A stretch of DNA of 64,000 nucleotides from an uncultured Acetobacteraceae bacterium. GTDB lineage: Bacteria; Pseudomonadota; Alphaproteobacteria; Acetobacterales; Acetobacteraceae. Made by a program: the position numbers and the translations under genes. A model generated the notes under the pieces. It was not told where the DNA came from, did no database searches, and saw only the letters and a list, made by a program, of their open reading frames with translations. This document shows, piece by piece, positions 48,701 through 49,518 of the stretch (position 1 is the stretch's first letter; each line of letters begins with the position of its first letter). The stretch spans positions 1-64,000 of the forward strand of contig CAIXEA010000010.1 in assembly GCA_903918315.1 (NCBI GenBank). The letters run 5' to 3'.

Positions 48701-48776
48701 TTGGCCGCGGCCCTGCTTTAAGTGCTTGCATCGGCGCGGTCAGGCGCGTCACACTTCCTGTGTGTTCAACCAACTG

Positions 48777-48791
48777 AAAGGAGGTGATCCA
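48777..48791 (+). promoter_or_regulatory. Full-length extended Shine-Dalgarno
   Basis: AAAGGAGGTGATCCA, with the G of the next GTG, gives a 16-base perfect complement to the 3' end of alphaproteobacterial 16S rRNA (CTGGATCACCTCCTTT). The core GGAGG ends 7 nt before the GTG. A 5-bp CACAC/GTGTG hairpin (48750-48764) lies upstream. Confidence 0.8.
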
Positions 48792-48857
48792 GTGTCTCAT
48801 TGTTCCTTGGCGTCCCACGTTGTGACTCGGATCGCCGGCGCAAGCGCGACGGCGTAG
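48792..48857 (+). CDS. 21-codon leader-like ORF
   Basis: A GTG-started ORF beginning MSHCSLASHVV and ending GASATA, then TAG. It lies in the 245-nt gap before tag. The extreme ribosome site argues that it is translated. The peptide has no signal or membrane segment and no run of one amino acid that would suggest classical attenuation. A rho-independent terminator lies 41 nt after its stop, so it may be a leader peptide controlling tag, or an independent short transcript. It is too short for family assignment. Confidence 0.6.
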   Translation: MSHCSLASHVVTRIAGASATA

Positions 48858-48897
48858 ATTTCTCCGGTCCGGCGACGGACAGTCATAAACAATGCCA

Positions 48898-48934
48898 GGG
48901 CTTCGGGGGCGACCCCGGAGCCCGCTTTGTTTTC
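48898..48934 (+). terminator. GNRA-loop terminator between the leader ORF and tag
   Basis: An 11-bp stem (GGGCTTCGGGG/CCCCGGAGCCC, one G-U pair) with tetraloop GCGA is followed by CTTTGTTTTC. This is a strong rho-independent terminator or attenuator candidate. It ends 11 nt before the tag ATG, so tag expression must pass it or start within it. Confidence 0.75.
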
Positions 48935-48945
48935 AGGGTAAGCCC

Positions 48946-49518
48946 ATGACCGAACCAACCGTGCACCGTTGCGCCTGGGCTGCCACCGGTGATGCGCAGA
49001 TGCGGGACTATCATGACCGCGAATGGGGCATTCCGGTCCACGACGATTCCCAATTGTTCGAAATGCTGACGCTGGAAGGCGCGCAGGCCGGGTTATCCTG
49101 GCGGACCGTACTGATGCGTCGTGACGCTTATCGTCGCGCCTATCATGAGTTCAATATCGAACAGGTCGCGGCCATGCCCGATGCGCTGCTGGAGTCGCTG
49201 CTGCGGGACTCCCCGCTCATCAAGAACCGGTTGAAGATCTATTCTGTACGTGACAACGCGCGGGCCGCACGCGCTGTGATCGCTGGGCATGGCGGTCTGG
49301 ACGCGTTTTTGTGGGCGCTGGCTCCTGGTGCGCCGATGATCAATCGCTGGACCGAGGCGGCGCAGGTCCCGGCCACGACCCCGGTCTCTGACCACATGAG
49401 TAAAACCTTGCGCAAAGCCGGGTTCCGCTTTGTCGGTTCCACGATATGTTATGCCTTCATGCAGGCGACAGGCATGGTCAACGATCACCTGACCACCTGC
49501 TTTTGCCACGGCCGATAA
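48946..49518 (+). CDS. tag: DNA-3-methyladenine glycosylase I
   Basis: Tag removes 3-methyladenine from alkylated DNA. The 190-aa protein has the N-terminal zinc ligands HRCAWA and the conserved YHDREWGIPVHDDSQLFEMLTLEGAQAGLSWRTVL. SPLIKNRLKI, FRFVGSTICYAFMQATGMVNDHLTTCFCH with the C-terminal Cys/His zinc ligands complete the family pattern. ATG at 48946 has only a weak AGGG upstream. A terminator and leader-like ORF precede it. Confidence 0.95.
   Translation: MTEPTVHRCAWAATGDAQMRDYHDREWGIPVHDDSQLFEMLTLEGAQAGLSWRTVLMRRDAYRRAYHEFNIEQVAAMPDALLESLLRDSPLIKNRLKIYSVRDNARAARAVIAGHGGLDAFLWALAPGAPMINRWTEAAQVPATTPVSDHMSKTLRKAGFRFVGSTICYAFMQATGMVNDHLTTCFCHGR

Follow-up and report, generated by a model that had tools for sequence, protein, structure and literature searches.

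A predicted small RNA homologous to CC2171 combines a near-complete complement of the 16S rRNA tail with a conserved short reading frame in Alphaproteobacteria

We propose, with a probability of roughly 55%, that a short element in the genome of an uncultured Acetobacteraceae bacterium is a translated, self-closing small RNA homologous to the Rfam family CC2171, and that the act of translating it, not the peptide produced, is its regulatory output. The element lies in a window of 64,000 nt, which covers positions 1-64,000 of the forward strand of contig CAIXEA010000010.1 (assembly GCA_903918315.1). It is predicted to be a gene in its own right, some 170-180 nt long, with estimated ends. Comparison supports a near-complete complement of the 16S rRNA 3′ tail at its 5′ end and a terminator of its own. 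The anatomy described here is likewise based on comparison, and the mechanism and function proposed for it are putative.

All parts of the element are on the forward strand. A promoter-like pair, TTGCAT (48726-48731) and CACACT (48750-48755), is spaced by 18 nt, and transcription probably starts near 48761. A scan for strict consensus promoters returned none at the window element. Across 213 elements, the first hexamer of the best -35/-10-like pair fell 47-51 nt 5′ of the Shine-Dalgarno (SD) sequence in 100, whereas 20 mononucleotide shuffles gave 18.6 on average and never more than 24. Directly 5′ of the SD lies a conserved, AACAAC-like segment (48768-48775), where column conservation at positions -8 to -1 reaches up to 1.75 bits among 48 elements of the own family. 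The extended SD itself (48776-48792) is a 17-nt complement of the 16S 3′ tail, identified by sequence match and predicted duplex. The original prediction of a 16-nt full anti-16S sequence was accurate, with AAAGGAGGTGATCCAG found exactly at 48777-48792; a G at 48776 extends the complement to 17 nt of the alphaproteobacterial tail. As also predicted, a GTG-initiated mini-ORF of 21 codons follows (48792-48857), reading VSHCSLASHVVTRIAGASATA and ending in a TAG stop.

Codons 3-5 of this ORF, CATTGTT (48798-48804), form the putative 5′ strand of a helix, H1, whose 3′ strand, AACAATG (48888-48894), lies directly 5′ of the terminator; both strands are assigned from covariation and fold. Further into the ORF, GGATCGCC (48829-48836) could pair with GGTGATCC (48783-48790) in the SD, a pairing with moderate support. 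A hairpin, GTCCG-GCGA-CGGAC (48867-48880), lies 3′ of the stop codon and was seen by eye in most of the genus loci listed. The intrinsic terminator (48898-48933) consists of an 11-pair stem (48898-48923) with a GCGA loop and a T-rich tail, GCTTTGTTTT; the terminator scan found one in the window against 0.3 in shuffles. The expected GNRA-loop terminator upstream of tag is therefore present, at a distance of 12 nt from the gene and not the 11 nt first given. The neighbour tag (DNA-3-methyladenine glycosylase I, 48946-49518) lies outside the element; its NCBIfam score of 208.6 bits is below the cut-off of 232.5, and its Pfam score of 238.4 bits is above the cut-off. The stretch 48923-48946 leaves almost no space for a tag promoter after the terminator.

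CC2171 is a Caulobacter small RNA that is said to originate from Landt et al. in 2008. At the gathering threshold, the sole Rfam match in the window is a tRNA. At low threshold, RF01867 (CC2171) aligns to 48768-48924 over its full length (model positions 1-159 of 159) with 67.1 bits and an E-value of 7.1e-14, short of the curated cut-off of 75 bits. A relative of the same family (L008) scores 88.4 bits, and matches were obtained in 19 of 20 further loci, from 34.0 bits (cut by a contig end) to 90.7 bits, with L065 the one locus lacking a match. We thus call the window copy an RF01867 homologue below the formal cut-off. The model holds the SD, the long-range helix and the terminal hairpin, as does the window element, and its closing helix CAUUGUC/GACAAUG corresponds to CATTGTT/AACAATG in the window. 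Whereas the Rfam entry is typed as 'Gene; sRNA', the window element carries a mini-ORF whose frame appears to be selected; an ORF of 22 codons can also be read in the RF01867 consensus as printed, with GUG, 21 further codons and UAA. Matches at E ≤0.001 occur in 85 of 385 genomes of the class, 13 of them above the cut-off, and among 14 control genomes Caulobacter vibrioides alone matches. Two low-scoring places among 40 fetched (L273 and L275) have no SD and are probably false matches.

In the literature searched, the names CC2171 and RF01867 were found in the intended sense in two papers only. The accessible part of the Rfam 15 paper includes RF01867 in its R-scape table (PMC11701678), and that of the Mesorhizobium huakuii study describes candidate MH_s33, labelled RF01867, as a sequenced 215-nt transcript (PMC5596092); this RNA-seq support for expression applies to the Mesorhizobium relative, not to the window genome. 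Exact-string searches matched a single paper, on YbeY oligonucleotides, and no description of the mini-ORF or of a function was recognised among the matches listed. According to the consulted portion of Schrader et al. 2014, Caulobacter intergenic ncRNAs are mostly untranslated and two earlier-predicted ncRNAs are translated (PMC4117421), so those data may already show CC2171 to be coding.

The 16-mer is single-copy in the 5.04-Mb genome at up to one mismatch, and it is the sole site in the window at up to three mismatches, where shuffles average 0.39. No 16S gene was found in the 241-contig source assembly by a search whose control was positive in just 9 of 14 known genomes; the tail comparison thus rests on the S. 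meliloti sequence, taken from the 39-mer GGCUGGAUCACCUCCUUUCU... as given in the excerpt consulted (PMC6943124). The predicted duplex with the 16S tail amounts to -35.0 kcal/mol vs -11.6 kcal/mol for a short SD. The last G of AAAGGAGGTGATCCAG doubles as the opening base of the GTG (48792-48794); a complement paired with the tail over its full length would therefore be expected to preclude use of the start codon, and vice versa. The start codon lies 1 nt 3′ of GATCC, and in 72 of 94 distinct elements the second codon is TCT. A relic or antisense copy of 16S rRNA was considered and rejected, as the sequence past CCAG differs from antisense 16S and no rRNA family matches at the element.

A complement that spans the whole tail and pairs so stably could also serve as a decoy for the free 16S tail of 30S subunits, acting by titration, hibernation or 16S protection. 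In line with this, 29 of 36 substitutions at positions 3-15 of the 15-mer (94 elements) retain 16S pairing through G-U pairs (A to G 13 and 1, C to T 15), whereas 7 break it (C to G 5, C to A 1, T to C 1); 20 further substitutions fall at positions 1-2, four of them A to G. The pattern would fit selection for 16S pairing, and equally transition bias and shared ancestry. A pure decoy would, however, need neither the reading frame nor the start and stop that are kept, and we consider this explanation quite unlikely.

The conserved frame argues for the preferred reading, a small RNA whose translation is its output, and the features that show it lie for the most part beyond the letters used as search patterns. 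In 262 of 270 elements the reading frame meets its first stop at codons 14-36; in the other 8 the stop comes later, and in none earlier. For the other two frames, 82 and 99 of 270 first stops lie in this range; some early stops in one control frame stem from a TCTAGT common to the MSS types, and elements too short for the needed stretch were left out. In the set drawn from the class, the stop lies within this range in 106 of 111 elements, and in 34 and 27 for the other frames. The motif TGGAT is in frame in 58 of 59 matches over all types, at spacings that differ by multiples of three, and in all 53 MSHC-type ORF matches, at 27, 33, 36, 39 and 42 nt. Of the 21 genus loci listed, 20 have their stop directly after codon 21, with TAG, TAA and TGA interchanging. 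As the frame is conserved, the RNA is predicted to be translated.

The peptide behaves differently. For 18 distinct genus ORFs, pN/pS was 0.75-0.88 in the ORF frame and 0.60-0.61 and 1.34-1.41 in the control frames (duplicates and the 22-codon L038 were excluded, and the named record L194 is the same ORF as L048). A conserved peptide was rejected on this basis, the ORF value not being below that of one control frame. With such values despite the kept stop position, the frame seems to be selected more than the peptide. Taken together, the comparison supports an ORF that stops before the 3′ strand of H1 and stays open for mostly 14-36 codons, its frame being constrained and its amino acids hardly.

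These observations bear on the simplest alternative, a plain small mRNA whose product is the peptide and whose long SD merely serves high expression. Such an mRNA would account for the retained ORF, frame and stop, and some lineages do have an ORF of 55-59 residues with a start that resembles a signal peptide by eye. Against it speak the genus pN/pS and the complete replacement of the ORF text between families under a constant 5′ end, with MSHC, MSHG, MSSE, VSRK and 14-codon KRCHLAGIAR forms. Moreover, codon 4 switches between Cys, Arg and Gly in step with its H1 partner. We therefore regard the plain mRNA as an unlikely explanation.

Covariation of the H1 strands supports a helix in the CAT types between codons 3-5 and the stretch directly 5′ of the terminator. 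The exact partner CAATG is present in 101 of 106 CATTG-type elements vs 4 of 112 elements of other types, CCATG in all 52 CATGG-type elements vs 4 of 166, and CGATG in 5 of 8 CATCG-type elements vs 4 of 210. By the same exact 5-mer measure, no partner was found in nine other 5′ types (AGTGA 0/10, CATTC 0/5 and none in seven smaller types); the closing helix is seen in CAT types only. Own pairings exceed swapped pairings with t of about 5 (n=91), and a test that allowed the partner anywhere downstream was weak, with full 8-mer pairings in 56 of 191 elements vs 13 of 191 after shuffling. The exact partner lies within 28 nt 5′ of the terminator in 159 of 173 CAT-type elements having a terminator. 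In none of these 159 does it overlap the ORF, the gap having a median of 38 nt and a minimum of 12. A terminator-like structure was detected in 218 of 237 elements vs 8 of 237 mononucleotide-shuffled ones; for all H1 and terminator counts, elements shorter than the needed stretch were left out. As the partners covary, H1 can be expected to form. The predicted fold of the window RNA includes H1, with a z-score of -2.85 and 1 of 200 shuffles equally stable, and has the SD partly paired with the terminator tail. In a MAFFT alignment of 51 elements, the 3′ strand of H1 was unaligned between the CATTG and CATGG types.

The SD can also find partners within its own RNA. Its best internal complement averages -15.27 kcal/mol vs -13.49 kcal/mol in shuffled sequences (n=111), and in MSHC types this self-complement is largely the in-ORF GGATC. 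There, the base before the start codon and its in-ORF partner covary partially (A/T 33/52, G/C 8/12, T/A 5/12, C/G 1/2). The pairing is uneven, with TGGATC for GATCCA in 33 of 135 cases, CGGATC for GATCCG in 8 of 76 and TGGACC for GGTCCA in none of 15. Speculatively, lineages may share one topology yet differ in the pairs that close it, namely H1 in the CAT types and an internal anti-SD in some members of family f23. In that family, the anti-SD directly 5′ of the terminator of L331, GGACCATCTCCTTT, faces AAAGGAGGTGGTCC of the same RNA at -26.0 kcal/mol, compared with a mean of -16.3 in shuffled sequences. It is likewise clear in L266 (-16.7 vs -11.5 when shuffled) and weak in L321 and L324, where it barely exceeds shuffled values.

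In the mechanism that we favour, the very strong SD would load ribosomes co-transcriptionally, once the 5′ end of the RNA has been made. At the end of transcription, the newly made 3′ strand of H1 would pair back onto the initiation region, and this closure would limit further initiation. The RNA would thereby switch from an open form that is translated to a closed one, with translation itself, not the peptide, as the regulatory output. A further step can be offered as speculation and is itself unlikely: the element as an RNA machine in which the 16S-tail complement captures a ribosome, an ORF of near-free sequence acts as a timer, and the closing RNA reports ribosome availability to a partner. 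Should translation itself be the function, the element would be a ribosome-gated small RNA, testable in model organisms such as Caulobacter. The combination, over 270 elements, of a strong selected-frame signature and a near-complete match to the ribosome tail in a family that Rfam types as sRNA indicates that small RNAs filed as non-coding can conceal selected frames.

The element is widespread among Alphaproteobacteria. The DNA search matched 28 of 40 genomes, the own genome counted, and of the 33 genus genomes, 30 carry the SD-start pattern. The three genus genomes without it are at most 80% complete, and one of them (L053) has the element cut at a contig end; among genus genomes at least 90% complete with at most 5% contamination, all 23 match. 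The ORF-terminator pair of the original prediction is present in these close relatives. In the wider family, the exact 18-mer occurs in 58 of 150 genomes. A pattern of SD, start and TC with up to two mismatches matched 118 of 385 class genomes, compared with 15 of 385 for a reversed-pattern control. At up to one mismatch, the same short pattern matched 49 of 299 Pseudomonadota genomes (control 0), which divide into 49 of 86 Alphaproteobacteria vs 0 of 213 other Pseudomonadota. All these occurrence counts presuppose the SD in the search pattern; some patterns include TCTCAT, and the conservation of the SD and TCTCAT letters comes partly from match selection.

At least 120 named stretches carry the element, including Sphingomonas, Novosphingobium, Bosea and Methylobacterium, with Microvirga, Roseomonas, Brevundimonas and Azospirillum as further hosts among the matches listed. 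Of 207 elements, 14 were dropped as duplicates or too short, and 120 locus identifiers yielded the 94 distinct elements retained above. Nearly all matched genomes hold one copy; G183 has two elements of different type, L057 and L061 (MSHG and MSHC). One element of alphaproteobacterial type (L151) lies on a MAG contig labelled Candidatus Kuenenia stuttgartiensis, a placement that is probably a binning error.

The genomic neighbourhood argues for a unit of its own. According to tblastn on fetched flanks, tag lies 3′ of the element in 9 of 20 genus genomes tested (L045, L053 and L061 are absent from this test, with the pattern unmatched or at a contig end) and is absent from the flanks of all 30 loci taken from the family's other genera. 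At these 30 loci, a crude ORF caller gave a nearest downstream ORF for 29, of which 17 run on the opposite strand. A conserved operon partner was sought by clustering the neighbours and rejected, as linkage did not go beyond the level of a genus or clade; one cluster, for instance, covered 26 of 120 named loci. As the linkage to tag is patchy and the neighbours differ, we read the element as independent of tag and not as its leader. The original prediction had put forward a translated leader governing tag by attenuation, for which the terminator tail ending 12 nt before the tag start and the presence of tag in 9 genomes could be cited. With 11 of 20 genus genomes and every other-genus locus lacking tag in the flank, a frequently convergent downstream ORF and no attenuator-typical codon run visible by eye, this explanation is very improbable. 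The best fit among the earlier suggestions is the independent short mRNA, as promoter-like signal, ORF and terminator travel together. The accompanying remark that the element fits none of the known attenuator classes may be right; among small RNA families, however, RF01867 matches it end to end, if below cut-off.

Comparing the element with known systems reveals partial similarities. In hok mRNA, the 3′ end folds back to inhibit initiation of a short ORF. The 3′ end of our element would similarly fold onto the region where its short ORF is initiated; however, H1 pairs within codons 3-5, and no toxin-like peptide is apparent by eye. A hok-like type I toxin mRNA that folds back into a closed form would explain the short ORF in a structured RNA and the 5′-3′ closing pairing. 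It is nonetheless scarcely credible, as most of the peptides lack a membrane-spanning stretch (by eye) and are unconserved, and nearly all matched genomes are single-copy. Dual-function small RNAs such as RNAIII/hld and SgrS/SgrT encode peptides that are conserved or of known role. Like these and, from the portion of the report consulted, Pos19 of Rhodobacter (PMC5036791), the element is a small autonomous RNA with a short ORF. The difference is that here the frame and the RNA are conserved and the peptide hardly. Extended SD sites in Staphylococcus aureus are presented, in the sections available, as a general mRNA feature with long start-proximal pairing and short ORFs (PMC13009471), whereas the 16-mer described here occurs once in its genome and reaches the start codon.

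Two further observations concern the ORF. In MSS-type ORFs, a C-terminal EQP(S/L) was examined as peptide conservation in 78 elements and rejected, as 22 of 30 nucleotide hits lie in one frame but 5 and 3 in the two remaining frames. The underlying GAGCARCC near the ORF end (for example in L245, L268, L288 and L326) reads mostly as EQP and in some elements in other frames, and may be an RNA motif. In L065, L068, L131, L161, L172 (MSHGA type) and in L244, L298 and L300, the same 5′ module is followed by the ORF of 55-59 residues, whose start resembles a signal peptide by eye. In L161, ACCATG is still present 3′ of the stop codon of this long ORF.
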